The notes under the pieces: generated by a model
Database searches by the model: none
What the model saw: only the letters and a program-made list of their open reading frames with translations
What the model was told of the DNA's origin: nothing
Position numbers and translations under genes: made by a program
Shown: one piece after another, positions 2,950 through 51,197 of the stretch
Numbering within the stretch: position 1 is the stretch's first letter
Layout: each line of letters starts with the position of its first letter
DNA from: Solirubrobacteraceae bacterium
GTDB taxonomy: Bacteria; Actinomycetota; Thermoleophilia; Solirubrobacterales; Solirubrobacteraceae
Assembly: GCA_031177685.1 (NCBI GenBank)
Contig: JAPSGI010000001.1
Location: forward strand, 1-64,000
DNA: 64,000 bases
Direction: 5' to 3'

Positions 2950-2959
2950 GCGCGCGCAA

Positions 2960-3048
2960 CGGAGGGGGTGGGATTCGAACCCACGAGGGACCTGACGGCC
3001 CCTAGCGGCTTTCAAGGCCGCCGCATTCAACCGCTCTGCCACCCCTCC
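2960..3048 (-). tRNA. tRNA-Ser (anticodon TGA)
   Basis: On the minus strand the sequence starts GGAGGGGTGGCAGAGCGG and ends with the T-loop GGTTCGAATCCC and acceptor CCCCTCC. The anticodon loop reads CTTGAAA, giving anticodon TGA. The long variable arm (between CCGC and the T-stem) is typical of tRNA-Ser. No CCA is encoded. It lies convergent with the LVIVD gene and divergent from the next tRNA-Ser, 60 bases away. Confidence 0.97.
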
Positions 3049-3108
3049 GGGTGGGATGACAGGGTAGCCCCGCCCCCGGTGATCAGCGCCTAAACTGGTC
3101 GCGACCCC

Positions 3109-3197
3109 GGAGAGGTGGCCGAGTGGCTGAAGGCACTCGCCTGCTAAGCGAGTATGGGGTTCACGCTCCATCGCGGGTTCGAATCCCGCCCTCTCCG
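3109..3197 (+). tRNA. tRNA-Ser (anticodon GCT)
   Basis: Starts GGAGAGGTGGCCGAGTGG and ends GGTTCGAATCCCGCCCTCTCC plus discriminator G. The anticodon loop CTGCTAA gives GCT. A long variable arm is present, as expected for tRNA-Ser. No CCA is encoded. It decodes AGC/AGT codons. Confidence 0.97.
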
Positions 3198-3213
3198 CTC
3201 AGATCGAGCGCGC

Positions 3214-5484: not shown

Positions 5485-6269
5485 GGCCGTTCGGCGTCCG
5501 CCTCGAGCGGCAGGCACACGCGGCAGAAGTCCTCGCCGAAGGGCGTCAGGTGGATCGTGCGCCGCACGGTCTTACGGCCACGTCCCGCCCGGCGCAGGGC
5601 GGCGAGCACGTCCGGCTGCGCCTCCAGGACCTGGTAGCGCAGCGGATCCTCCAGCGGCTCGCGCGAGAACCAGACCAGGCCCAGGCGGTAGAGGTTGTTG
5701 AGGTAGGCCGGTACGCGGTCCAGGTGGCGGCAGCCGGCCTGGGCGCCGATCATCGACAGGCCCGGCGCGACGAGCTGGGTGGTGATCGGAAGGCCCTCCT
5801 TGGCGCCGCGCACGTCGACGGAGGGCTGCGGGCCCTCGAGTGCCAGCAGCCGCAGGATTCGTCCCTCGTCGGGGTGCAGCTGGTCGAGGATCCGGTCGTA
5901 GGCGGGGTGCGCGGGCTCCTCGTCGGTCACGTCGGCCGAGCGGCGCAGCAGCTCGGCGCCACGCTCGCGCAGGGCGTCCGTCGCGGTCTCGTAGGTCTCC
6001 TCGTCCATCGGGTCGCCGTCGGGGCCGCCGTTCTCGGTCGTCACGCCCAGCGTGCGGCGGACGTATTCGCGCAGGTCCGCCACGACGTCGGCCGGGGACT
6101 CGCCGTTGGCGGCGGCGCGCAGCAGGCGCGTGGTGGTGCGCATGGAGGTCACGACCGTCCATTGCGCGGTCCGCCACCACGCGCCGGCGGCGAGCCGGGC
6201 CAGGGCGGGGCTGGCGCGCAGGACGTCGCGCTCCAGCGGCGGTTCTTCGCGGAGCGGGCCGTCGTCCAT
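5481..6269 (-). CDS. Abi-alpha / DUF4393-like protein
   Basis: 262 residues. The ATG overlaps the stop of the upstream DUF445 gene (TGATG), so translation is probably coupled. The middle part ('LHPDEGRILRLLALEGPQPSVDV', then 'YLNNLYRLGLVWFSREPLEDP') resembles the Abi-alpha family, whose founding members were named for abortive infection; most chromosomal members have no proven role. It ends with a Cys-containing tail (FCRVCLPLE). No membrane segment is evident. The family call is by eye. Confidence 0.7.
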   Translation of the reverse strand: MDDGPLREEPPLERDVLRASPALARLAAGAWWRTAQWTVVTSMRTTTRLLRAAANGESPADVVADLREYVRRTLGVTTENGGPDGDPMDEETYETATDALRERGAELLRRSADVTDEEPAHPAYDRILDQLHPDEGRILRLLALEGPQPSVDVRGAKEGLPITTQLVAPGLSMIGAQAGCRHLDRVPAYLNNLYRLGLVWFSREPLEDPLRYQVLEAQPDVLAALRRAGRGRKTVRRTIHLTPFGEDFCRVCLPLEADAERP

Positions 6270-7540
6270 CACACGCCGAAGATCCCGAGGTGCAGGAGCC
6301 CGGCCACGAAGCCCAGCACGGCGCCGTGGAGCATGAGCAGCCACTCGTCCTCGCGCATCGCCGAGCGCAGCAGCTCGGAGAAGTCGCGCGACGGCAGCTC
6401 GCGCATTCGCTCGGCGAACAGCTCGCGCACGGCCTGGCTCTGGCGCGCGTTGAACTCCGGGTCCATCAGCGGCGTCATCGTGTAGTCGACGGCCTCCACG
6501 GCGACCGTCTCGCGGATCGAGTCGTACTCGCGCGGGCCGACGGCGGCGCGCACGGCGGGCTGGGCCACCCCGCTGGCCCGATCCACCGCCGGGCGCAGGG
6601 CGTCGCGCAGCAGCTGGTGGGTGCGATCGCTGCGCGGCCCGTGCAGCAGCTCGTCGCCGATGTTCTCCAGCGTGACGATGTCGTCCGCGACGATCTGCGC
6701 GTAGACGTCGGCCGCCTCGTGCTGGCGGCGCAGGAACAGCCCGTGTACGAGGAAGGGCCCGATGCGGCGCGGCTCGATCGGCTCGAAGATCATCCAGATC
6801 GCCACCCAATTGGTCACGTACCCGACCACCGTCCCGGCGATCGGCAGGACCCACCAGTAGTGGAAGGTCTCGGTCAGCGCGATCACCGGGAAGCCGAGCA
6901 CGAGGCCGAAGAAGAATCCGAAGTTGATGATGAAGCGCAGCTCGCGGCCGCCGACCTCGGTGAAGACCCGGTTGCACAGCTCCGGGCGCTCCTCCATGCG
7001 GCGGATGACCATCAGCTTGATGTCCAGCAGCTGGTCGATGTGGTCGCCGATCCGCTCCGTGACCTCGTGGACCACGCCCGGCAGCTGGTCGCGCACGCGG
7101 GCGTGGACGGCCTCGCGGATGCGCGGCGTCAGATCGCGCCACAGGCGCGGGTGCTCGCGCTCCATGGTGCGCTCGACCAGGTCGCGGATGTCGCGCTCGG
7201 ACGTGGCGAGGATGTGCTCGGCGATCAGGTCCGGGTCCAGCCGCCGGTAGAAGTCCGACGCGTTGCCGAGCTTCGCGATCCCCTTGTCGACGGAGATCGA
7301 GCCCATCTTGGCCGCGCGCGAGGGGATGATCCCCTGCCAGCCCACGCCGCCCTGCATGACGCCGGGAATCTGCTGGATCTTGCGCGGCAGCAGCCCCGCC
7401 AGCGGCTGCAGCCCGGGGAGCCGGAAGCCCTTGAACCGCAGCGGGTTGAAGAGCATCCAGATGCCGGTCCAGTTCGTCACGTAGCCGATCACGCCCGAGA
7501 AGAGCGGGATCGTCACGATGCTGATCGTTTCCGAGCTCAA
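6269..7540 (-). CDS. DUF445 family membrane protein
   Basis: 423 residues from a TTG start. Hydrophobic segments near the N-terminus carry 'GVIGYVTNWTGIWMLFNPLRFKGF', and the motif recurs in the middle as 'GTVVGYVTNWVAIWMIFEPIEP', the duplicated hallmark of DUF445. A final hydrophobic helix closes the protein (AVLGFVAGLLHLGIFGV). The long central region is helical and charged. Family function is unknown. It is coupled to the Abi-alpha-like gene downstream. Confidence 0.85.
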   Translation of the reverse strand: MSSETISIVTIPLFSGVIGYVTNWTGIWMLFNPLRFKGFRLPGLQPLAGLLPRKIQQIPGVMQGGVGWQGIIPSRAAKMGSISVDKGIAKLGNASDFYRRLDPDLIAEHILATSERDIRDLVERTMEREHPRLWRDLTPRIREAVHARVRDQLPGVVHEVTERIGDHIDQLLDIKLMVIRRMEERPELCNRVFTEVGGRELRFIINFGFFFGLVLGFPVIALTETFHYWWVLPIAGTVVGYVTNWVAIWMIFEPIEPRRIGPFLVHGLFLRRQHEAADVYAQIVADDIVTLENIGDELLHGPRSDRTHQLLRDALRPAVDRASGVAQPAVRAAVGPREYDSIRETVAVEAVDYTMTPLMDPEFNARQSQAVRELFAERMRELPSRDFSELLRSAMREDEWLLMLHGAVLGFVAGLLHLGIFGV

Positions 7541-7619: not shown

Positions 7620-7693
<74 letters not shown>

Positions 7694-7830: not shown

Positions 7831-7849
7831 CATGTGATTAGATGACTGG
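7831..7849 (+). promoter_or_regulatory. Island operator-like motif, site A
   Basis: CATGTGATTAGATGACTGG. It matches site D (17328-17346, other strand) in 16 of 19 bases and has the same orientation relative to its downstream gene. It sits about 30 bases before the 68-codon leader gene that precedes the HisD-like gene. It is inferred to bind the island's GntR regulator. Confidence 0.55.
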
Positions 7850-7879
7850 CGTAGTCGCAGTCGCACCACTCCGCGCCTG

Positions 7880-8086
7880 ATGCATCAACTCTCCGCAATC
7901 GAGCTTGCCTCGCTCATCGCCGCCCGCGTCGCCTCAGCCGTCGACGTCATCGAGCGCTTCCTGGGGCGCTCGGCTCTAGGCGGGGCGTGGGCCCGTCCAG
8001 AAGAGCTGTCTCGATCGTGGCGAGACGAGCTCAGCGTCCGCGCGGTCTCCGAGCTGCAGGTCATGCCTGAGCGGCTAGCCCCATGA
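7880..8086 (+). CDS. Small protein with amidase-like N-terminus, possibly a gene remnant
   Basis: 68 codons from ATG 7880. The first 25 residues (LSAIELASLIAARVASAVDV then IERFL) look like the N-terminal helix of amidase-signature enzymes; the rest (GRSALGGAWARPEELSRSWR onward) does not. Its TGA overlaps the ATG of the HisD-like gene (ATGA), so it could be a translated leader. Either it is the stump of an amidase cut by the island insertion or a real small protein; the sequence cannot settle this. Confidence 0.4.
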   Translation: MHQLSAIELASLIAARVASAVDVIERFLGRSALGGAWARPEELSRSWRDELSVRAVSELQVMPERLAP

Positions 8087-9384
8087 CGAACTGGCTGAAA
8101 GAGGCGCCCTGGCAGAGTGATCAGGTCACCGCCGATGTGAAGCGAACCGTCTCCGAGATGCTGCTGCGCATCGAGGCCAACGGCGAGGCCGCCATCCGCG
8201 AGTACTCCAAGCAGCTCGACGACTGGGCCCCTGAGCGCTTCACGGTGACCGAGGACGAGCTGGTGCGCGCGGGCGACGCCATCGACGACGATCTGAAGGC
8301 CCACATCGCGTTCGCCCAGGAGCAAGTACGCAACTTCGCGCAGGCCCAACGCGACTCCATGCACGACCTTGAGGTCGAGACTCTGCCCGGAGTCGTCTTG
8401 GGGCATCGCCACATTCCGGTCCAACGTGTCGGGTCGTACGTGCCGGGTGGCCGGTACCCGATGCTGGCCTCCTCGTTCATGACGGTGATCGTTCCGCGGG
8501 TGGCCGGGGTTGAGACCGTGGTCGCGTGCGCGCCGCCTCGCGGAAGCACCGGCATTCATCCGGCCATGGCATTTGCCATGCACACCTCGGGCGCTCACCA
8601 CGTGGTCTGCCTAGGCGGCGTTCAAGCGCTTGCCGCGCTCACGTACGGCATCGAGGGTCTGCCGCCCGCAGACATCGTCGTAGGCGCCGGCAACGCGTAC
8701 GTGGCCGAGGCCAAGCGTCAGCTGTTTGGGAAGGTTGGCATCGACCTTCTGGCCGGCCCCACTGAGATCGGAATCATCGCCGACGCCTCAGCCGACGCCG
8801 AAGTGGTTGCCACCGATCTGCTCGGTCAGGCCGAGCACGGCCCAACGTCGCCGGCCATTCTGATCACCACCTCCAGAGAGCTGGGTGAGAAGGTGCTGAC
8901 CGAGATCGAGCGGCTGCTGCCGACCTGGCCCACCAGGGAGGTCTCGCAGACCTCATGGAACGCCTACGGCTCGGTGGCGGTTGTCGACGACGCCGACGAG
9001 GCGATCGCGCTCTCTGACGAGTACGCGCCCGAGCACCTGGAGCTGCAACTGGAAGACGAGCTGCTCGACTACTGCTTGGACAAGCTGCGTAACTACGGAT
9101 CGCTGTTCGTAGGCGAGCAGGCCACGGTCGCTTATGGGGACAAGGCGGTCGGCACCAATCACGTGCTGCCGACCGTTCGCGCCGCCCGCTATACCGGCGG
9201 GCTGTGGGTGGGCAAGTTCCTCAAGACCTGCACCTACCAGCGGCTGACCCCGCAAGGAACGAGCTTGGTGGCACCGGCGGTGGCCGCTATATCGCAGGCG
9301 GAGATGCTCGAAGGTCACGCTGAGACTGCGCTGCTGCGGCTGCGGCGGCTCCAGGCCGCGGAGGCCGGCCCTACCTGGGACTAA
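8083..9384 (+). CDS. Histidinol-dehydrogenase-like zinc alcohol dehydrogenase
   Basis: 433 residues. Fits the HisD family from end to end and keeps the zinc ligands and catalytic pair: Q and H in 'GQAEHGPTSP', E-H in 'EYAPEHLEL', D in 'GDKAVGTNHVLPT' and H in 'EGHAETALLR'. HisD-type enzymes oxidise a primary alcohol to a carboxylate in two NAD-dependent steps. The catabolic setting and absence of his genes argue against histidine synthesis. It resembles the branch that includes sulfopropanediol dehydrogenase HpsN, but the substrate is unknown. An SDR follows 10 bases later. Confidence 0.85.
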   Translation: MTNWLKEAPWQSDQVTADVKRTVSEMLLRIEANGEAAIREYSKQLDDWAPERFTVTEDELVRAGDAIDDDLKAHIAFAQEQVRNFAQAQRDSMHDLEVETLPGVVLGHRHIPVQRVGSYVPGGRYPMLASSFMTVIVPRVAGVETVVACAPPRGSTGIHPAMAFAMHTSGAHHVVCLGGVQALAALTYGIEGLPPADIVVGAGNAYVAEAKRQLFGKVGIDLLAGPTEIGIIADASADAEVVATDLLGQAEHGPTSPAILITTSRELGEKVLTEIERLLPTWPTREVSQTSWNAYGSVAVVDDADEAIALSDEYAPEHLELQLEDELLDYCLDKLRNYGSLFVGEQATVAYGDKAVGTNHVLPTVRAARYTGGLWVGKFLKTCTYQRLTPQGTSLVAPAVAAISQAEMLEGHAETALLRLRRLQAAEAGPTWD

Positions 9385-9394
9385 AGACCAGCTG

Positions 9395-10168
9395 ATGACT
9401 GCCCGACCCGAGTTCGGCGGCGACTACCGGCTGGCTGGCCAATGGGTGGCCGTGGTGGGCGCCAGCCGTGGCATCGGAGCGGAGACCGCGGTGGCCTGCG
9501 CCCAGGCCGGGGCGGAGCAGCTGCTTCTGCTGGGCCGCGACGAGCAGGCGCTGGCTGATGTAGCCGCCCGGGTTGAAGCGGCCGGGGCGTCAGCGAAAGT
9601 CGCGCGAGTCGATGTACGAGACGCCTCCGCGCTGGCGCGGTTCTTCTCTGACCTGCCTCGGCTGGACACGCTCATCTACAGCGCCGGTGTCAATCGGCCC
9701 GAGCCGTTCGTCGAAGTCAGCGAGCAAGTTCTCGATCTCCTGCTGGAGACGAATGTGCGCGGCGCCTTTCTGACGCTGCAAGCAGCGGCACGACACATGC
9801 TGGCTGCTGAGCGAGCAGGAACCCTGATCCTCGTCGGCTCGCAAATGGGCCACGTCGGCGCACGGCTGCGCACCGCCTATTGCGCCACCAAGCACGCCGT
9901 TGAGGGCTTGGTGAAAGCGGCAGCGGTAGAGCTGGGCCCGGCCGGTATTCGCGTGGTGAGCGTCGCTCCCACCTTTGTGCGAACCGAGTTGACCGCCGCG
10001 CAGCTCGATGACCCGGAAATAAGTCGGGAGCTGCTTGCACAGATCCCGCTGGGCCGGTTCGGGTCCGTGGCCGAGGTGGCGCAGACCATCGCCTTCCTGG
10101 CCTCCCCGGCAGCCGGGCTAATCACCGGATCGTCAGTCCGTGTCGACGGCGGCTGGACTGCCCGCTAG
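9395..10168 (+). CDS. Short-chain dehydrogenase/reductase
   Basis: 257 residues from ATG. Classical SDR: nucleotide-binding GASRGIG near residue 23, NxAG-like 'YSAGVNRP', catalytic S in 'LVGSQMG', Y and K in 'YCATKHA', and C-terminal 'GSSVRVDGGW'. It probably oxidises or reduces a hydroxyl of the island's substrate with NAD(P). It is in one transcript with the HisD-like gene and convergent with the aldolase gene, from which it is separated by about 108 bases with no evident gene. Confidence 0.9.
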   Translation: MTARPEFGGDYRLAGQWVAVVGASRGIGAETAVACAQAGAEQLLLLGRDEQALADVAARVEAAGASAKVARVDVRDASALARFFSDLPRLDTLIYSAGVNRPEPFVEVSEQVLDLLLETNVRGAFLTLQAAARHMLAAERAGTLILVGSQMGHVGARLRTAYCATKHAVEGLVKAAAVELGPAGIRVVSVAPTFVRTELTAAQLDDPEISRELLAQIPLGRFGSVAEVAQTIAFLASPAAGLITGSSVRVDGGWTAR

Positions 10169-10276
10169 GGTCGCCCATCAGCCACTTCCTCGAAGCGGGA
10201 GGCGCTCGGTCTCGTCACGACCGCATGTGGAGGCGCCGGACCGATGCGTGCCTACCATGAAGAAGACGCAACGCGA

Positions 10277-11038
10277 CTACCCGGCGCCGCGCAGCACGCT
10301 GGTGCGGGAAGCCAGGACCTCCCAGAACATCCGCACGTCCGAAGAGAAGATCACGGGGCCGCCGTCGGCGAGCGCCCGAGCGCGCGCCGGGTCGCCGCCC
10401 ACCGCCAACCCCCAACCCTTGCCGTGCGCCTGGGCCGCCCGGCGGACCGTGGCCAGTGTCTGGCAAATCTCTTGGTCGGCCAGCTGCATGGGCCGGCTGA
10501 CATCGAAGGAGTAGTCGCTGGAGCCCAGCACCAGCGCATCGCACACCTCGTGGGCAGCGAGCCGTTCGGCTGTTGCCACCGCCTGCTTGGACTCGACCTG
10601 CACGATGCAGGCTGGGCGTTGGCCGGGGGTTGGGACTCCGTCCGCCAGGGACGCGCGCCGAGGCGCAAATCCTCTTTCACCGAGTGGCGGGAAATGCACC
10701 CGTCGGGCAAACTCGGTCAACTGCTGCTCGGTCTCGACCCTCGGCAGCACGATGCCATCCACACCTGTGTCGAGTAGCGCGCCCAGGTTCTCGCTGTCCG
10801 GGCTGGTCAGCCGCACCATCGACTTCGCACCGCCTGCGGATACGGCGATCACCAGCGCTAGGACGTCGCTCAGCGACAAGGCGCTGTGCTCGAGGTCGAT
10901 CCACACGACATCGAAGTGCGCGGCTACCGCTTCGCAGAACACCGGATCACGCGTAGACAGCACCGTGGTCAGCAGCGAGCTGGGCGACGCTCGCAGAGTT
11001 GCTGCGAGCTCGCTACCGCTTTGGGCGACGCCGAGCAT
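10277..11038 (-). CDS. HpcH/HpaI-family class II aldolase
   Basis: 253 residues from ATG 11038; an in-frame TTG at 11062 would add 8 residues but lies inside the operator-like motif. Family features: 'VWIDLEHSALS', 'GFAPRRAS', the metal ligand E in 'VQVESKQA' and D in 'LGSSDYSFDVS'. Such aldolases cleave 4-hydroxy-2-oxo acids to pyruvate (or a related oxo acid) and an aldehyde using a divalent metal. It is likely the carbon-carbon cleavage step of the island pathway. Divergent from the IolD-like gene. Confidence 0.85.
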   Translation of the reverse strand: MLGVAQSGSELAATLRASPSSLLTTVLSTRDPVFCEAVAAHFDVVWIDLEHSALSLSDVLALVIAVSAGGAKSMVRLTSPDSENLGALLDTGVDGIVLPRVETEQQLTEFARRVHFPPLGERGFAPRRASLADGVPTPGQRPACIVQVESKQAVATAERLAAHEVCDALVLGSSDYSFDVSRPMQLADQEICQTLATVRRAAQAHGKGWGLAVGGDPARARALADGGPVIFSSDVRMFWEVLASRTSVLRGAG

Positions 11039-11059
11039 AGCCCCATCATGACGGTCTTT

Positions 11060-11077
11060 CAATCATTAGACAAGTCC
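11060..11077 (-). promoter_or_regulatory. Island operator-like motif, site B1
   Basis: Read on the minus strand: TTGTCTAATGATTGAA. It shares the TAATGATTGAA core with site B2 and lies just upstream of the aldolase ATG, in the same orientation relative to its gene as sites A, B2 and D. It is weaker than A or D. It is inferred to be a binding site for the island's GntR regulator. Confidence 0.4.
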
Positions 11078-11112
11078 CACACGCAGCCTTCCAGCCCGTC
11101 GTACCGCGGCTC

Positions 11113-11131
11113 ATCCAATGATTGAATAACT
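11113..11131 (+). promoter_or_regulatory. Island operator-like motif, site B2
   Basis: ATCCAATGATTGAATAACT. The TGATTGAATAACT part matches site D (TGATTAGATAACT) in 11 of 13 bases. It lies about 18 bases before the ATG of the IolD-like gene. Confidence 0.5.
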
Positions 11132-11148
11132 AAGGTAGCATTCTGGCT

Positions 11149-13044
11149 ATGAGCACCTCCTCTGGGGCGCGAGCAGGCGCCGGCACAGTACGTATCACCG
11201 TCGGACAGGCCCTTGTGCGGTACTTGGCCGCACAGCATTCCGAGCGGGACGGCCAGCGCCGCAGGCTCATTCCCGCCATGTTCGGCATCTTCGGCCACGG
11301 CAACGTGGCCGGGGTGGGTCAGGCGCTCGAGCAGCATTCGGACCTGATGCCGTACCTGCAGCCCAAGAACGAGCAGGGGATGGTGCATGCGGCGATCGGC
11401 TACGCGCGCGCGAACGCCGGCCTGGCCACCCTTGCCTGCTCAGCGTCGATCGGTCCCGGGGCCACCAACATGCTCACCGGCGCAGCTACGGCGACGGTCA
11501 ATCGCGTGCCGGTGTTGCTGTTGCCATCGGACACCTTCGCCTCTCGGCTGCAGGGACCGCCGATGCAGGCGGTAGACAACCCTGCACTGGGCGACGTGTC
11601 GGTGAACGACGCGTTCCGGCCGGTGAGCGTGTTCTTCGACCGCATCAGCCGGCCGGAGCAACTGATGGCCGCGCTGCCGGCGGCGATGGCCGCCTTGCTG
11701 GAGCAGGGTCGCGCCGGGGCGGTCACGTTGTGCCTGCACCAAGACGTCCAGGCAGAGGCCTACGACTTCCCCGAGTCCATGTTCGAGGAGCGTACGTGGC
11801 TGGTCGCCCGGCGCCCGCCGGCCGCTGAGCAGCTAGCCGCGGCGGTTGAGCTTCTGGGTTCGAGCCAGCGACCGCTGATCATCGCGGGAGGCGGGGTGCG
11901 CATCTCCGAGGCCCACCAAGCGCTTCGCGCGTTCGCGGAAACCCATGGCGTTCCGGTGGCTGAGACCTCGGCCGGCAAGGGCTCGCTGCAGGGCTCCGAA
12001 CTTGGCCTGGGCGCAATCGGTCATTCCGGTACCAGGGCCTCAAACCGGCTGGCACGCGAAGCAGACGTCGTGCTTTGCGTGGGCACGCGGTTGATCGACC
12101 TGACCACTGGGTCGAACACGTTGTTCCAAGACCCCCAGGTGCGATTCGTTTCAATCAATCAGGACGTCTTCGACGCCAACAAGCTGGGCGCGGCGGCCGT
12201 GCAAGCAGACGCCAGATTGGGTTTGGAGTCGATGAGCCGGCGGCTCGCCGAGCTGGGTTGGTCTGCGCCAAGCGATTGGACGGGCCGAGCAGCGCAGGCC
12301 AAGCGGCAATGGACGGCTGACTTGGAGGCCGACCTCGCCCCTCGCGACGGCGAGGGCCTGACCCAGGGCCAAGCGCTTCGCGAACTGAACCGCCATGCCG
12401 GCCCGTCTGACTCGCTGGTGGTCGCCTCCGGGACGCCGCACGTCGATGTACACAAGCTCTGGGACAGCTCCGCTGGCACCAAGGTGATGATGGAGGTGGG
12501 CTTTTCGACCATGGGCCACGAGATTCCGGCCGGCCTGGGGCTCCGGATGGCCCAGGGCCCAGAGGGGGAGGTGTTCGTCGTGATCGGCGACGGGACCTAT
12601 CTGATGGGCCATACCGAGCTGGTCACGGGATTGCAGGAAGGTCTCAAGGTCACCGTCGTGGTGTTCGAAAACCACGGCTACCAGTCGATTCACGCTCTGC
12701 AGCGCGGTCGCACGGGACGGTCTTTCGGGCTGGAGTTTCGCCAGCGGGCAGGGGGAACTTTGAGCGGCGACTACGTCAAACTCGATCTGGTAGCCAACGC
12801 GCGCTCCTACGGCTGCGCCGCCTACTACGCGCAAACGACTGACGAGGTGGCTGAGGCGTTGGCAGCTGCCGCCAGCCAGCCGCTGCCGGCGGTGGTCGTG
12901 ATCAAGACCGAACCGCACCGGCTGCTGTTGGATTCGGAGTGCTGGTGGGATGTCGGAGTAGCGGAAGTCTCTACCCGGCCCGAGACTCAGGAGGCGGAAC
13001 GCCGTTGGGCGGCCGGGCGCGAGCAGATGCGGTGGTTCGGGTGA
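11149..13044 (+). CDS. IolD-like ThDP-dependent cyclic-dione hydrolase
   Basis: 631 residues, the usual length for 3D-(3,5/4)-trihydroxycyclohexane-1,2-dione hydrolase. The N-terminal ThDP (PYR) domain has the IolD phrase 'MFGIFGHGNVAGVGQALEQ' and the catalytic Glu in 'PKNEQGMVHAA' (E75). A central transhydrogenase-like domain and a C-terminal PP domain follow, with 'VIGDGTYLMG...FENHGYQS' for Mg-ThDP near residue 480. IolD opens a cyclic 1,2-dione in inositol breakdown. No other inositol gene is visible here, so the true substrate may be a related cyclitol. First gene of a three-gene coupled operon. Confidence 0.88.
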   Translation: MSTSSGARAGAGTVRITVGQALVRYLAAQHSERDGQRRRLIPAMFGIFGHGNVAGVGQALEQHSDLMPYLQPKNEQGMVHAAIGYARANAGLATLACSASIGPGATNMLTGAATATVNRVPVLLLPSDTFASRLQGPPMQAVDNPALGDVSVNDAFRPVSVFFDRISRPEQLMAALPAAMAALLEQGRAGAVTLCLHQDVQAEAYDFPESMFEERTWLVARRPPAAEQLAAAVELLGSSQRPLIIAGGGVRISEAHQALRAFAETHGVPVAETSAGKGSLQGSELGLGAIGHSGTRASNRLAREADVVLCVGTRLIDLTTGSNTLFQDPQVRFVSINQDVFDANKLGAAAVQADARLGLESMSRRLAELGWSAPSDWTGRAAQAKRQWTADLEADLAPRDGEGLTQGQALRELNRHAGPSDSLVVASGTPHVDVHKLWDSSAGTKVMMEVGFSTMGHEIPAGLGLRMAQGPEGEVFVVIGDGTYLMGHTELVTGLQEGLKVTVVVFENHGYQSIHALQRGRTGRSFGLEFRQRAGGTLSGDYVKLDLVANARSYGCAAYYAQTTDEVAEALAAAASQPLPAVVVIKTEPHRLLLDSECWWDVGVAEVSTRPETQEAERRWAAGREQMRWFG

Positions 13045-14009
13045 GGAGCGTTATCTCGACCGCGCAGATTCCGGATACCGGCCATCGCGCCTTTGCCAGC
13101 ATCGGCCCGGTTCATGTTCTCAACAGCGATTCCAGCCTCCTTGAGAAGGCAGAGGTGCTGATCGTTCGGGCCGAGAGACTTACCGAGGCTGACTTGGGCC
13201 GCGCCGGCAAGCTGCGCGTGATCGCTCGAACCGGAGTGGGTGTGGACAACATCGATGTTGCGGCGGCTACGCGAATGGGCATCCCGGTGGTATTCGCCCC
13301 CGGCGCGGGGGTTCGGCCGATCGCCGAAGGCGCGATGGCTCTGATCCTCGCGGCGGCCAAACGACTCGGTGAGCTCGGTGCGGTCCTGCGCCAGGATCTC
13401 TGGCCGACTCGCTACGCGCTGGAGCCGCTCGATCTGAAGGGAGCGACGCTCGGCATCGTGGGCTTCGGCCGCATCGGCCGCGAGGTCGCCAAGCTTGCGG
13501 CCTCGTTCGGAATGCGAATCCTCGCATGCGATCCGATCGCTGAGCCGGCCGTCCTCGACGGCGACGGTGTGGGCGTTGAGTTCGTGGATTTGCCCGACCT
13601 GATGAAGGCGGCGGACGTGGTGTCGCTGCACTGCCCGCTTACAGACGAGACCCGTGGAATGATCGACGCTGAGGCGATGGCGTCCATGAAGCCCGGCGCC
13701 ATCTTGGTCAACGTGGCGCGCGGAGGAGTGGTAGCTAGCGACCAGGTGCTGATCGACGCGCTGGAGCGCGGCCAACTCAGCGGCTTGGGTCTAGATGTCT
13801 TTGAACAGGAACCTCCGGCGCCTGACAGTCCGCTGCTCGTGGATCCGCGCGTGATCTGCACTCCACACACCATCGGTCTGACGCGGCAATGGAATCAGCG
13901 GGTGTTCTCTTCGCTCGCGGCGGACGTGACGCGTGTGCTTGCGGGGCAAGAGCCTCAGCACCTGGCCAATCCAGCTGCGCTCAGCGGCGCCGGCTCGGCG
14001 GCGTCATGA
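13041..14009 (+). CDS. D-2-hydroxyacid dehydrogenase (phosphoglycerate-dehydrogenase-like)
   Basis: 322 residues from a GTG that overlaps the IolD-like stop (GTGA). Contains 'GVGVDNIDVAAA', the NAD-binding 'LGIVGFGRIGREVA' (about residue 140), catalytic R in 'VNVARGGVV', E in 'DVFEQEPP' and H in 'CTPHTIGLT'. Family members interconvert 2-oxo acids and D-2-hydroxy acids. It lacks the C-terminal ACT/ASB domains of serine-pathway SerA, which supports a catabolic role. Its stop overlaps the next start (ATGA). Confidence 0.88.
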   Translation: MRSVISTAQIPDTGHRAFASIGPVHVLNSDSSLLEKAEVLIVRAERLTEADLGRAGKLRVIARTGVGVDNIDVAAATRMGIPVVFAPGAGVRPIAEGAMALILAAAKRLGELGAVLRQDLWPTRYALEPLDLKGATLGIVGFGRIGREVAKLAASFGMRILACDPIAEPAVLDGDGVGVEFVDLPDLMKAADVVSLHCPLTDETRGMIDAEAMASMKPGAILVNVARGGVVASDQVLIDALERGQLSGLGLDVFEQEPPAPDSPLLVDPRVICTPHTIGLTRQWNQRVFSSLAADVTRVLAGQEPQHLANPAALSGAGSAAS

Positions 14010-14884
14010 GCCAAGCTCGTGCGCTTGCACTGGGCCCAGACGAGCTCGGCGAAGGCATCGGCTGGCTGGCCGAGACCCAGTCCTTGCTACGCGTAGACAT
14101 CCTCAGAGGGCTCATTCATCGAGTACAGGGCGCGCTAACCGCGGAGCCCGTCGTGGAAACGCAGAGCTTTGAGGGCGAGGTCGGCTTCGCTCTCCCCCGG
14201 CGCTCGGGAGGCTTCGTCATTGGCGTCGAGCAGCGGCTCGAGCTGATCGCAGCTGACGGCACGCGGTCGTTGCTCTTAGAGCTCGACGAGCCATCGGACC
14301 ATCGCTTCAACGACGCCATCGGCGACGCGCTCGGCCGGTTGTGGGCAGGAACCTTTGCCAGAGAGAGGCGACGAGGCGCCGCCAATCTCTACCGCATTGA
14401 CCCGGACGGCAGCATTGAGCTGGTGCTAGACGGCCTCACCATCGCCAACGGCTTGGGTTGGCTCGACGATGGCGAGCGACTGCACTTCATCGATTCGCCC
14501 ACCCAGCGCGTAGAGGTCTTCGACGTCGACATCGCCGCGGGCACCCTCTCGGGTAGGCGAACGCTGGCCGAGGTACCGGTCGAAGCGGGGGCCCCCGACG
14601 GCTTGTGCGTCGACGACCAGGACGGGACATGGGTGGCGCTGTTCGGCGGCGGTGCGGTGCGCCGTTACAGTCGCGAGGGAGGGCTGACCGAAGAGGTGAC
14701 GCTGCCCGTGCCGCATGTGACGAACGTGTGCCTGGGCGGCGCCGAGCTCGCTGATTTGTTCATCACCACAACGCGTCACCGGCTCAGCGACCAAGAGCGC
14801 CAGCAGTTGCCCCAAGCCGGGCGGGTGTTCCACGCGCCGGTGGAGGTGGCCGCGCCCGGCGGCTTGGCTGCGTTCGCCGGCTGA
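14006..14884 (+). CDS. SMP-30/gluconolactonase-like lactonase
   Basis: 292 residues. Six-bladed propeller lactonase of the SMP-30 family; metal-site residues appear as E in 'GEGIGWLAE', N and D in 'RFNDAIGDALGRLWAGT', N in 'TIANGLGWLDDG' and D in 'GAPDGLCVDDQDG'. Such enzymes hydrolyse sugar or sugar-acid lactones. It is coupled by ATGA to the dehydrogenase gene. In this setting it probably opens a lactone formed by one of the SDRs, which is inference. Confidence 0.85.
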   Translation: MSQARALALGPDELGEGIGWLAETQSLLRVDILRGLIHRVQGALTAEPVVETQSFEGEVGFALPRRSGGFVIGVEQRLELIAADGTRSLLLELDEPSDHRFNDAIGDALGRLWAGTFARERRRGAANLYRIDPDGSIELVLDGLTIANGLGWLDDGERLHFIDSPTQRVEVFDVDIAAGTLSGRRTLAEVPVEAGAPDGLCVDDQDGTWVALFGGGAVRRYSREGGLTEEVTLPVPHVTNVCLGGAELADLFITTTRHRLSDQERQQLPQAGRVFHAPVEVAAPGGLAAFAG

Positions 14885-14888
14885 TCCT

Positions 14889-15671
14889 CTACAGCGGATC
14901 GCGAAAGAAACTCGACCGGGCCGAGGTTCCGCCATCGACATAGATGACCTGGCCGGTGATCCAGCGGCTACCCGCGCCGCACAAGAGCGCCACGAGCGGC
15001 GCCACGTCAGCCGGAAAACCCACACGTCCGGCCGGGATAGCCCCCGCGTAGGCGTCTGACTGATAGCCCGGGCGCTCGTGGTAGCGAGGCACCTCCACCA
15101 CGCCCGGCGCCACCGCATTGACTGTGATCTGCTCCGGCGCCAGCTCAACTGCCAACGCACGCGTGAGCGCATCGATGCCGCCCTTGCTGGCGGCATACGC
15201 CGCGAACCGCGGCAAGCCGGCGCCACCATGGATGGAGGAGATGTTCACGATGGAGCCGCCGGCCTCACCCATGGCCGCCCGAGCAGCTTGGGCGCAGAGG
15301 AAGTACCCGCGCAGATTGAGACCGATGAGCGCGTCGAAATCGGCTGCGCTGGTCTGAGCGAACGGCTGCTCGAGCGTGCGGCCGGCGTTATTGATCAGCG
15401 CGTCCAGGCCGCCCAGCGCCTCGGCCGCTTCGGCGACTAGCCGACCTGGCACCGCGGGCTCGCCGAGATCGCCCCGAAAGCTCTCCGCCCGCGCGCCGAC
15501 GTCGGAGAGCATCGCCAGCGTTTCGTCCGGGCTCGATGAGGCAGTGTGAAGGGCGACCCGGGCGCCTTGCCGCCCCAGCTCCACGGCGATCCCCTGCCCA
15601 ATGCCCACCCCGGCGCCCGTAACCAGTATCCGGCTGCCGGCAAGCGGCGCGATGTCGACGTCAGTACTCAC
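14889..15671 (-). CDS. Short-chain dehydrogenase/reductase
   Basis: 260 residues from GTG 15671 (a TTG 27 bases upstream is also in frame). Classical SDR: '[12 protein letters not shown]' near residue 15, '[10 protein letters not shown]', S in 'NISSIHGG', Y and K in 'YAASKGG', C-terminal '[12 protein letters not shown]'. It is convergent with the lactonase (stops 4 bases apart) and probably transcribed alone or with the DegT gene. The substrate is unknown, but pairing with an SMP-30 lactonase suggests a sugar or cyclitol dehydrogenase. Confidence 0.88.
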
Positions 15672-15935
15672 GAGAGCCCATCCTTCGGCGGTGGTCAACC
15701 ATGGAGATCAAGTGACTAGAACGCATGTCGGAGACTACGACACTACCGCGTCGCCCAAGGCGATCGCGCCGTGCCCAAGCATTCGTCGTGGCCAGGGACG
15801 ACGTCACCGACCAGGCCCTCTCGGGCTACGTCGCCGCCCATCGAACGCGACCGGGCCCAGGTTGGCGGCTAGAGATCGAACTCCCTCCCGCGACGCCCTG
15901 GTAGCCGTGGGGCGGCGAAGCCGTCAGCGCGGCGC
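15672..15935. other. Short region without an intact gene
   Basis: 264 bases between the SDR and DegT genes. One weak copy of the island motif (GTGACTAGAAC, 15712-15722) lies upstream of the SDR start. On the plus strand, about 15790-15903 reads as a short open frame ending in TAG (containing 'VTDQALSGYVAAHR' and 'GWRLEIELPPATPW'), which looks like the C-terminal stump of a lost gene. Nothing else is recognisable. Confidence 0.35.
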
Positions 15936-17300
15936 TCAAGCCGCCCGCGCGGGCTCGCCCTGCATCCCCGCCGAGCGGTTGAACTCCGTCACCTGTCGAG
16001 ACGACTCGGGGATCTCGAAGGGCGCGGCGAGCAGCTCGTCGGCCGCCGCAAGCACCTTCTCGATGGCGGCGGCGTAGGCGTCGATCGTCTCCTCGCGCTG
16101 GACGCTCAGGGGGATCGCGCCGGTGCCGAGCACGAGCGAGCTTTCGCAGATGCTCAGCGCCACGGGGTAGGCCTGCGGGTCCCACGGCTTCAGGTCCTCG
16201 TCGCGCAGCGAGGTGTGCCATGGCACGATCGGATCGCGCCGGAAGGTCGGGTACGCGGGTAGCGGGTGGTGCTGCCACAGCGTCGCCGGCACGCCCTCCG
16301 CGTTGAGCGCGGCGACCACGCGGTCGCGCAGCTCGCAGGGTTCACGGCCCGCGTCCAGCGCGACCGTGTCGATGCCGAGGCGGTAGATGTACCAAACGCT
16401 GTTGCGGTCCCCTGGGATCAGCGGCGTGATCACCCCGTCGACCGCGTCGAGGCGCTCGGTCAACCGCCGCGCGTTGCGCTCGGCCGCCTCGTTGTAGGCG
16501 TCGAGACGCCTGAGCTGGGAGCGTGCCAGCGCGGCGGGCAGCTCATGGGCGCGGTAGTTGAAACCGAGGCCATGGGACCAGTAGCGACGACCGAAGGGCG
16601 GGTCCTCGGACGGGAGATCCTCACCCATGTAGCGCAGGCGATCCGCCGCCGTGACGAGCTCGGTCTCGTCGGTGACGAAGAGCCCGCCCTCACCACCGGC
16701 GAGGTTCTTGGTGGCGTTGAGGCTGGCCCCCGCGCAGCGGCCGAAGTTGCTGACGCGCTTGCCCTTGTAGCGCGCCCCATGCGCCTGCGAGGAGTCTTCG
16801 ACGACGTCCAGGTCGTGCTTGGCGGCGATCGCCAGCAGCTCGTCGAGGTCGGCCGGCATGCCGTGCAGATGGACGATCATCAGCGCGCGCGTGCGCTCGT
16901 TGATCAACTCCTCGACGCGTTCTGGATCGATGTTGTAGGTGCGCGGCTGCACGTCGCAGAACACCGGAGTCGCGCCCGCCTGAGCGATCGGCATCGCGCT
17001 CCCGACGTAGGTGAACGCCGGCACGATCACCTCGTCCCCCGGGCCGATGCCGAGCGTCACCAAACACGCGTGCAGGGCGGCGGTGCCGGCGTTGAACGGC
17101 AGGCAGTGCGCGACGCCGTTGTAGGCCGCGTACTCGGCAGCCAGGGCAGGCGCCTCGACCGACCCTCCGCCCGTGAAGATGCCGCGGTCGAGCACCGCCT
17201 CGATGGCAGCTCGATCCTCCTGGCGAATTTCCGGCCAGCGGCGCAGCGAACCGGGGTCGAGGGTGGGCGAGCCACCGAGAACGGCAAGTTGCTCAGACAT
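15936..17300 (-). CDS. DegT/DnrJ/EryC1-family PLP aminotransferase
   Basis: 454 residues from ATG 17300. PLP-fold aminotransferase of the sugar/aminocyclitol type: 'FNAGTAALHACL' near residue 69, 'VIVPAFTYVG', the PLP-pyridine Asp in 'VVEDSSQAHGA' (D169) and the Schiff-base Lys in 'LNATKNLAGGEGG' (K198). With the lysine present it is an aminotransferase and not a dehydratase. It could remove an amino group from an aminocyclitol or amino sugar entering the pathway, or add one. Site D lies directly upstream. A C-terminal tail of about 25 residues is longer than usual. Confidence 0.88.
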   Translation of the reverse strand: MSEQLAVLGGSPTLDPGSLRRWPEIRQEDRAAIEAVLDRGIFTGGGSVEAPALAAEYAAYNGVAHCLPFNAGTAALHACLVTLGIGPGDEVIVPAFTYVGSAMPIAQAGATPVFCDVQPRTYNIDPERVEELINERTRALMIVHLHGMPADLDELLAIAAKHDLDVVEDSSQAHGARYKGKRVSNFGRCAGASLNATKNLAGGEGGLFVTDETELVTAADRLRYMGEDLPSEDPPFGRRYWSHGLGFNYRAHELPAALARSQLRRLDAYNEAAERNARRLTERLDAVDGVITPLIPGDRNSVWYIYRLGIDTVALDAGREPCELRDRVVAALNAEGVPATLWQHHPLPAYPTFRRDPIVPWHTSLRDEDLKPWDPQAYPVALSICESSLVLGTGAIPLSVQREETIDAYAAAIEKVLAAADELLAAPFEIPESSRQVTEFNRSAGMQGEPARAA

Positions 17301-17327
17301 GGGTCACTCCAATAGACCAGTGCACAC

Positions 17328-17346
17328 CCAGTTATCTAATCACTCG
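17328..17346 (-). promoter_or_regulatory. Island operator-like motif, site D
   Basis: On the plus strand CCAGTTATCTAATCACTCG; on the minus strand it reads GTGATTAGATAACTGG toward the DegT gene, whose ATG is 28 bases away. It is the closest match to site A at the opposite end of the island. Confidence 0.55.
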
Positions 17347-17460
17347 ACATCATGGTCCGTCAAGGCCCCTCACGCGGGGATTTCGCGAGCGTGGCGCGGC
17401 GGGGTGCTTCGGCGTCGACGTCGATCTCCTCTTCGGAAATGCTGCTGTAAGCTTGGTCCG

Positions 17461-17476
17461 CACAAGAAACCTTGTG
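17461..17476. promoter_or_regulatory. Inverted repeat upstream of gntR
   Basis: CACAAG-AAAC-CTTGTG: perfect 6-base arms around a 4-base spacer, 31 bases before the gntR start. FadR-type GntR operators are short palindromes of this size, so it may be a second or the main operator. No experimental support. Confidence 0.35.
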
Positions 17477-17490
17477 TGGCGCCGGTCGAC

Positions 17491-17504
17491 GTGATTTGAT
17501 GATC
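17491..17504 (+). promoter_or_regulatory. Island operator-like motif, site E
   Basis: GTGATTTGATGATC, differing from site A (GTGATTAGATGACT) at three positions and ending 2 bases before the gntR ATG. It would suit autoregulation. Confidence 0.45.
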
Positions 17505-17506
17505 GT

Positions 17507-18235
17507 ATGGCTCGGCGGCACCGAGAAGTCCTGCAGGTTCTGATCGCGGACATAGTGGCTGGCAGTCGCCAGCCCGGCGAGCAACTTCCGCGCGAGACCG
17601 ATCTCGTGGAGCAGTTCCGTGTCAGCCGCGGCGTGGTGCGCGAGTGCATCCGAGCGCTCGAAGAGCGCCATCTGGTATCGGTCAAGCACGGCCGTGGGGC
17701 GACCGTCCTACCCTCGTCGAGCTGGGACATGCTCGACGCGGACGTCCTGGCTGCGATCATCGACTCCCCCCAGGGCGGCGATGTGCTCTCCGAGTACCTC
17801 GAGTGCCGCCAGATCCTCGAGATCGAGGCGGCCGGCCTGGCGGCCGAGCGCGCGACCGGGGAAGACCTGGAGCGTCTCAAGGATGCGCTCGACCGTATGC
17901 AGGTGAGCGCCGAACGGCCGCCGAGCCGCGCGGCCGAGGAGCTCTTCCACGAAGCGGACCTCGGGTTCCACGCGGCGCTCATCGGCGCCACCGGCAACCG
18001 GGCGCTCACGAGCCTCGTCGAGCACATCCACAAGGCGCTGCTGACGGCGCGGTACCCGACCGCCCGGCCGGAGTACCGGGTCGAGCGCGCGCTGCCCGAG
18101 CACCGGGCGATCCTCAAGGCGGTGGCCGCGGGCAACCGCAGCGGCGCGCGCAGGGCGATGGCGAAGCACCTCGAGACGATCGGCGGCTACCTTCAGGAGT
18201 ACGTCGAAGAGTACCGCAGCGTCGCGACTCGTTAG
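17507..18235 (+). CDS. GntR-family (FadR/FCD) transcription regulator
   Basis: 242 residues from ATG. An N-terminal winged helix ('LPRETDLVEQFRVSRGVVRE', residues about 27-46) is followed by an all-helical FCD ligand domain with the usual metal ligands: D and H in 'EADLGFHAALIG', H in 'LPEHRAIL' and H in 'MAKHLETI'. FCD regulators sense small acids or sugar acids. It is the only regulator inside the island, at its right end, and its promoter carries the same motif as the enzyme promoters, so it is probably the local repressor. A P450 remnant follows. Confidence 0.9.
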   Translation: MARRHREVLQVLIADIVAGSRQPGEQLPRETDLVEQFRVSRGVVRECIRALEERHLVSVKHGRGATVLPSSSWDMLDADVLAAIIDSPQGGDVLSEYLECRQILEIEAAGLAAERATGEDLERLKDALDRMQVSAERPPSRAAEELFHEADLGFHAALIGATGNRALTSLVEHIHKALLTARYPTARPEYRVERALPEHRAILKAVAAGNRSGARRAMAKHLETIGGYLQEYVEEYRSVATR

Positions 18236-51065: not shown

Positions 51066-51154
51066 GGAGGGGTGCCGGAGTGGTTGAACGGGGCGGTCTC
51101 GAAAACCGTTGTGGGCCTTACGGTCCACCGAGGGTTCGAATCCCTCCCCCTCCG
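51066..51154 (+). tRNA. tRNA-Ser (anticodon CGA)
   Basis: Starts GGAGGGGTGCCGGAGTGG, ends GGTTCGAATCCC with acceptor CCCCTCC and discriminator G. Anticodon loop CTCGAAA gives CGA. Long variable arm present. No CCA encoded. Confidence 0.97.
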
Positions 51155-51197
51155 CTTACGCCCGCAGGCCGCCGAGGCGGAGGGCCATAATCGGGCT

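Follow-up and report, generated by a model that had tools for sequence, protein, structure and literature searches.

In the breakdown of myo-inositol, the thiamin diphosphate (ThDP)-dependent hydrolase IolD yields 5-deoxy-glucuronate, which IolB converts to a ketose, IolC phosphorylates and IolJ cleaves to dihydroxyacetone phosphate and malonate semialdehyde. Sugar acids can be degraded by oxidative routes, among them glucuronate oxidation and the sulfo-Entner-Doudoroff pathway, which employ a dehydrogenase, an SMP-30 lactonase and an HpcH aldolase. The full inositol series runs IolG-IolE-IolD-IolB-IolC-IolJ/DUF2090-IolA, and its genes define the IolCatGC cluster (PMC9430895). In a known variant of the lower half a DUF2090 aldolase stands for IolJ in the cleavage, and this variant still requires IolC (PMC9007349). 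Here we describe a nine-gene island in a 64,000-nucleotide stretch of DNA (the window, positions 1 to 64,000 of contig JAPSGI010000001.1) from a bacterium of the Solirubrobacteraceae. The island shares with the canonical pathway an IolD of the curated family, but where that pathway has IolB and IolC, and the DUF2090 variant IolC, the island instead has a lactonase, an HpcH aldolase, a hydroxyacid dehydrogenase and a HisD-like dehydrogenase.

All nine genes listed in the original prediction, which had reported them in about 10 kb with key residues intact, were confirmed with open frames at positions 8083-18235. At their centre IolD, the ThDP cyclic-dione hydrolase (11149-13044, + strand), is followed on the same strand by a D-2-hydroxyacid dehydrogenase of the hydroxypyruvate/glyoxylate reductase or phosphoglycerate dehydrogenase type (13041-14009) and an SMP-30/gluconolactonase (14006-14884; PF08450, 225 bits). 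Reading the sequence corrected the starts of the latter two to GTG at 13041 and ATG at 14006, so that they overlap the stops of IolD (13041-13044) and of the dehydrogenase (14006-14009), respectively, and the three genes therefore form one tightly coupled unit. On balance we lean towards the reading that the island encodes the ring-opening step and the lower part of an IolD cyclitol route, with the phosphorylating IolB-IolC-IolJ half replaced by a non-phosphorylating one. This reading is carried by the gene set, its recurrence, the absence of IolB and IolC, and intact catalytic residues.

The window IolD scores above the curated equivalog cut-off of TIGR04377 (759 versus 715 bits), as do 5/5 other IolDs of its clade that were tested, and it is the single IolD of its host genome (3.15 Mb, 96.6% complete). 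A genome-wide search for IolB and IolC gave zero matches to IolB (PF04962) and no IolC gene over its cut-off, so that the lack of these two genes, first noted in the window, is borne out for the whole genome. With iolD alone in the island, the IolCatGC definition (at least 3 of iolB, iolC, iolD and iolE within 10 kb) does not describe it. The lack of IolE and of a transporter holds for the island itself but not genome-wide. An IolE-like gene (208 bits against a TIGR04379 cut-off of 290; closest solved chain, IolE) at the end of contig C11 in this genome lies directly after a second DegT gene, a DMFA2_C-domain protein gene and a complete oligopeptide-type ABC transporter. Its DegT is 51% identical to that of the window. 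This combination suggests that the pathway is probably divided between the island and the C11 locus. The clusters of relatives carry IolE-like proteins (158-185 bits) and IolG-like proteins of their own. Because such genes occur in those clusters and at C11, the description of the island as self-contained and without other inositol genes is unsupported. A further IolE-like and Gfo/Idh pair at C13:244.5 kb is not close kin of the cluster versions. The IolD score and the IolE-like and Gfo/Idh genes elsewhere in the genome would suit plain inositol use, with a normal IolD whose product passes to unlinked housekeeping enzymes and neighbours that belong to unrelated sugar-acid pathways. We nonetheless consider this unlikely, as the genome has neither an IolB match nor an IolC over cut-off and the same neighbours accompany IolD, on two IolD lineages, in rhizobia and in several other genomes of the order.

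Relatives of the island were found by using IolD as query across the class and the HisD-like protein across the order; one more genome (G337) emerged when the C11 DegT served as query. At least seven further genomes of the order possess most of the gene set: G272, G286, G327, G421, G406, which appears to be Solirubrobacter soli DSM 22325, G337 and, partly, G404. The search for the set in other genomes, which had been proposed as a check, has thus returned it both here and in rhizobia. Common to these clusters are IolD, the hydroxyacid dehydrogenase, SMP-30, the FCD regulator, a HisD-like protein, a short-chain dehydrogenase/reductase (SDR), an IolE-like protein and Gfo/Idh, often with HpcH. 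The IolDs of six HisD-linked clusters group together on the same side of a branch that has a support of 98. Neither an IolB match nor an IolC over cut-off was found in the genome of the window (G000) or in G272, G286, G421, G327 and G298, while IolB is present in the 8 other IolD genomes of this test, which left out G337. The HisD-like gene of G272 comes from another branch of the HisD-like family, and the function there has therefore been replaced rather than lost. The single congeneric genome (72% complete) contains no close HisD-like match.

The gene set extends beyond the order. The best plasmid match to the IolD of the window (49%) is on pNGR234b of Sinorhizobium fredii NGR234, where about 19 kb, at about 441-460 kb of the plasmid, hold a HisD-like gene (48%), SDRs, an IolE-like gene, SMP-30 adjoining IolD, three Gfo/Idh genes, a hydroxyacid dehydrogenase and HpcH. 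In Rhizobium RCAM05350 IolD is followed by SMP-30 and accompanied by a sugar ABC transporter, an SDR and Gfo/Idh genes, and in Shinella zoogloeoides Teo12, Rhizobium CB3060 and Sinorhizobium RAC02 IolD is found with the dehydrogenase and HpcH, the first two having SMP-30 and an IolE-like gene as well. Among 45 IolD loci, a non-random sample, the dehydrogenase is near IolD at 14, none of which (0/14) has IolB or IolC nearby; IolB or IolC is near IolD at 28, and at none of these (0/28) is the dehydrogenase, HpcH or SMP-30 nearby. When the loci selected for the cluster are left out, the split is 8 versus 27 (Fisher 3e-6). The replacement module occurs on two separate IolD lineages, one the clade of the window and NGR234 and the other alphaproteobacterial (Teo12, CB3060 and RAC02), and no variation occurs across these loci at the catalytic residues of HpcH, SMP-30 and the dehydrogenase. 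Across phyla the usual place of IolB and IolC is taken by SMP-30, HpcH and the hydroxyacid dehydrogenase, a point that was absent from the original prediction.

For the route itself we infer the substrate, the order of reactions and the role of the HisD-like enzyme. DegT would remove an amino group in the first step; in relatives the ketone could come from an IolG-like dehydrogenase, an amine oxidase or a different aminotransferase. An IolE-like dehydratase encoded outside the island would then make the 1,2-dione that IolD opens to a 5-deoxy-hexuronate. An SDR, a Gfo/Idh protein or possibly the HisD-like enzyme may oxidise the aldehyde or lactol (C1 hemiacetal) to an acid or lactone, which SMP-30 would hydrolyse to a 5-deoxy-aldarate. 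Oxidation at C2 would give a 4-hydroxy-2-oxo acid for HpcH to cleave between C3 and C4, forming hydroxypyruvate and malonate semialdehyde, the latter a likely end product of the canonical pathway and of this one alike. The D-2-hydroxyacid dehydrogenase would finally reduce hydroxypyruvate to D-glycerate, or may itself perform the C2 oxidation. The replacement set would give the same carbon split as IolB-IolC-IolJ, without phosphate. As in the oxidative uronate routes, an aldehyde would be taken to a lactone, the lactone opened and a 2-keto acid split; unlike them, the route would be fed by the ring opening of IolD, and the island holds no IlvD/EDD dehydratase.

The HpcH/HpaI class II aldolase (10277-11062, - strand) keeps H59, R84, E157 and D183, which are invariant in 11 loci and across phyla and, as we take the metal and catalytic roles of its His, Arg, Glu and Asp residues, are those of a class II aldolase; its closest solved relatives are hydroxyketoacid aldolases. 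SMP-30 keeps its metal-site residues E55, N187 and D237, and the D-2-hydroxyacid dehydrogenase resembles phosphoglycerate and glycerate dehydrogenases. Two SDR genes flank this core: SDR1 (9395-10168, +) starts 10 bases past the HisD-like gene, a pairing kept in relatives, and SDR2 (14889-15698, -) has a 70% identical copy in the G272 cluster. The FCD/GntR regulator (17507-18235, +) has homologues in the other clusters.

The question of an amino group turns on the DegT-family pyridoxal phosphate (PLP)-dependent aminotransferase (15936-17300, - strand; PF01041, 282 bits; closest solved chain 8gyh), whose relatives include inosose aminotransferases. DegT is rare in the order (5/232 genomes). In G337 a single 41 kb contig carries two DegTs, an IolE-like gene, SMP-30, a ribose-type ABC transporter and an IolG-like gene (282 bits against a cut-off of 355), together with an IolD-dehydrogenase-SDR-HpcH-FCD operon. 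DegT is on the contig of the cluster in G272, whereas the G421 cluster has a class III aminotransferase and that of G286 an FAD amine-oxidase-type gene with an amino acid permease; these differing amine-handling genes fit entry modules that vary, for amino or plain cyclitols. The substrate is most likely a cyclitol, and gene linkage favours an aminocyclitol for this genome. The earlier proposal of such a substrate stays plausible, and its DegT component has gained independent support from the rarity of the gene and its linkage in G337, in G272 and at C11, while the substrate itself remains a proposal. Rhizopine (moc) catabolism shares with the island a possible aminocyclitol substrate and has Gfo/Idh and IolE-like proteins; DegT, HisD-like, HpcH and SMP-30 proteins are not known to belong to it. 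DMFA2_C (dimethylformamidase-like) proteins are encoded near DegT in two genomes (L144:5869-8145, +; L229:4986-6626, +) and might remove an N-acyl group from the substrate by hydrolysis.

Several observations weigh against a replaced lower half. Related loci are not independent, so we weight the occurrence on two lineages above the counts. Two large Solirubrobacter genomes (G404 and G406) retain IolB elsewhere, and G151 has IolD-HpcH-dehydrogenase plus IolB and IolC 20-25 kb off on the same contig. HpcH was not detected in the 20 kb core of G272 or in S. soli. The DegT and IolE-like genes of this genome are not clustered with an IolG-like gene, and the IolE-like proteins, at 158-208 bits, all fall under the IolE cut-off of 290. 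Finally, sugar-phosphate-cyclase genes near two to three clusters could point to synthesis rather than breakdown. AroB-like cyclases, 61% identical to each other, are encoded inside the IolD clusters of G337 (L228:10692-12014, -; 293 bits against an AroB cut-off of 305) and G421 (L192:2887-4098, -), where they adjoin aminotransferase and IolE/IolG-like genes. On contig C60 of G272, at a distance of about 22 kb from its IolD cluster, L229:13489-16779 encodes a DegT, a GNAT protein and a cyclase closest to 4p53 ('Cyclase'), which we take to be of the valiolone type; with two nearby AMP-binding enzymes this group resembles a small gene cluster for aminocyclitol biosynthesis. The usual trio for biosynthesis consists of a cyclase, an aminotransferase and an IolG-like dehydrogenase, and the whole IolD cluster, or its DegT part, might accordingly synthesise an aminocyclitol, in line with the inosose aminotransferases among the DegT relatives. 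We give this a small chance, since ABC importers, FCD regulators, IolD, HpcH, SMP-30 and the hydroxyacid dehydrogenase are of catabolic types and no cyclase was found in the window.

The HisD-like Zn/NAD dehydrogenase (8083-9384, + strand; PF00815, 442 bits) is most similar among solved structures to HpsN (393 bits, against 251 for true HisD), a sulfopropanediol (DHPS) 3-dehydrogenase with the motif GRY(A/S)H (PMC11382572). In alignment it shares with HpsN the fold, the Zn ligands, the catalytic Glu, His and Asp and the NAD site, but the sulfonate-recognising His126 is replaced by Met and the motif reads GRYPM. This kinship might suggest sulfonate breakdown, with the HisD-like protein as HpsN and the SDRs as HpsO/HpsP. 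The HpsN motif is absent, however, and no sulfolactate lyase or sulfoacetaldehyde acetyltransferase is named among the island genes (Pfam, NCBIfam); we reject DHPS degradation on the missing motif and hold it very improbable. Nor does the protein carry the G-S-A-P-L motif of biosynthetic HisD, of which a separate homologue, 38% identical, is encoded on contig C2. Enzymes of the HisD/HpsN type convert primary alcohols to acids, and HpsN acts on the aldehyde intermediate in preference to the alcohol (PMC11382572). By analogy with this preference, it is possible that the HisD-like enzyme oxidises the product of IolD, a hydroxy-aldehyde, to an acid.

The same chemistry would also allow the degradation of a C7-cyclitol of the valiolone or valienol type, or of its amine, in which the HisD-like enzyme would carry out a four-electron oxidation of CH2OH to COOH before or after ring opening. 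The conserved Zn and catalytic residues agree with this, as does the 4p53-like cyclase, presumably of valiolone type, beside DegT about 22 kb from the G272 cluster. We regard it as improbable, given that loci without a HisD-like gene exist (the G337 contig, Shinella Teo12 and Rhizobium RCAM05350) and that the surroundings of the G272 cyclase look biosynthetic (AMP-binding, GNAT). More tentatively than the replaced lower half itself, we suggest a broader version of it: an IolB/IolC-free, non-phosphorylating lower branch across Actinomycetota and Pseudomonadota, serving here for aminocyclitols that enter by DegT transamination, with the GRYPM proteins as a new subfamily of dehydrogenases acting on intermediates. 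The HisD-like gene is not confined to this pathway: its relatives in GTDB genomes number more than 580, and most of these occur without IolD. A HisD-like family with the motif GRYPM or GKYPL, apart from both HpsN and HisD, is spread over many phyla and often adjoins an SDR (loci L061-L140 and L179-L213). At L067, L084, L103, L109, L112, L118, L127 and L140 the HisD-like gene has in its vicinity a ThDP enzyme with 28-31% identity to IolD, often with a GMC oxidoreductase, a set that recurs in Bacillota, Pseudomonadota and Actinomycetota.

The mean GC content at third codon positions (GC3) is 0.82 for the nine island genes and 0.95 for the 22 other genes of the window, with disjoint ranges (Mann-Whitney p 2e-5). 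The island sits directly behind a tRNA-Arg(ACG) gene (7620-7693, +; ARAGORN and Rfam), which marks its left border and a possible insertion point. From this position and the low GC3, the island was probably acquired from outside. With its distinct GC3, its tRNA-Arg border and the recurrence of its genes in other genomes, it is not a chance assembly. A second copy of the tRNA 3' end (a putative att site) was looked for and not found, and no integrase is among the island genes (Pfam, NCBIfam), so the island has neither hallmark of an integrative element at a tRNA gene. An empty site was sought in relatives, where the neighbouring gene (6269-7540) was found with no shared downstream context and no adjoining tRNA-Arg. 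Elsewhere in the window are three tRNA-Ser genes (TGA, GCT and CGA) at 2959-3198 and 51066-51155, including a divergent pair within 250 bases.

In openly licensed literature we found no described operon of this kind, no aminocyclitol catabolism with IolD and no lactonase route behind IolD, and the statement that no described pathway has this gene set stands within that literature. Our verdict is that the variant of IolD-based cyclitol catabolism represented by the island, with its lower half replaced, is real and conserved. Inositol catabolism is taught with a single lower half, which runs through IolB and IolC. If the present reading is true, a second, phosphorylation-free route, recurring in soil actinobacteria and rhizobia, would explain IolD-bearing genomes that present annotation rates as incomplete, and would open a way to the breakdown of aminocyclitols of the rhizopine or antibiotic type. 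The gene set is directly testable in culturable organisms, Sinorhizobium fredii NGR234 and Solirubrobacter soli.

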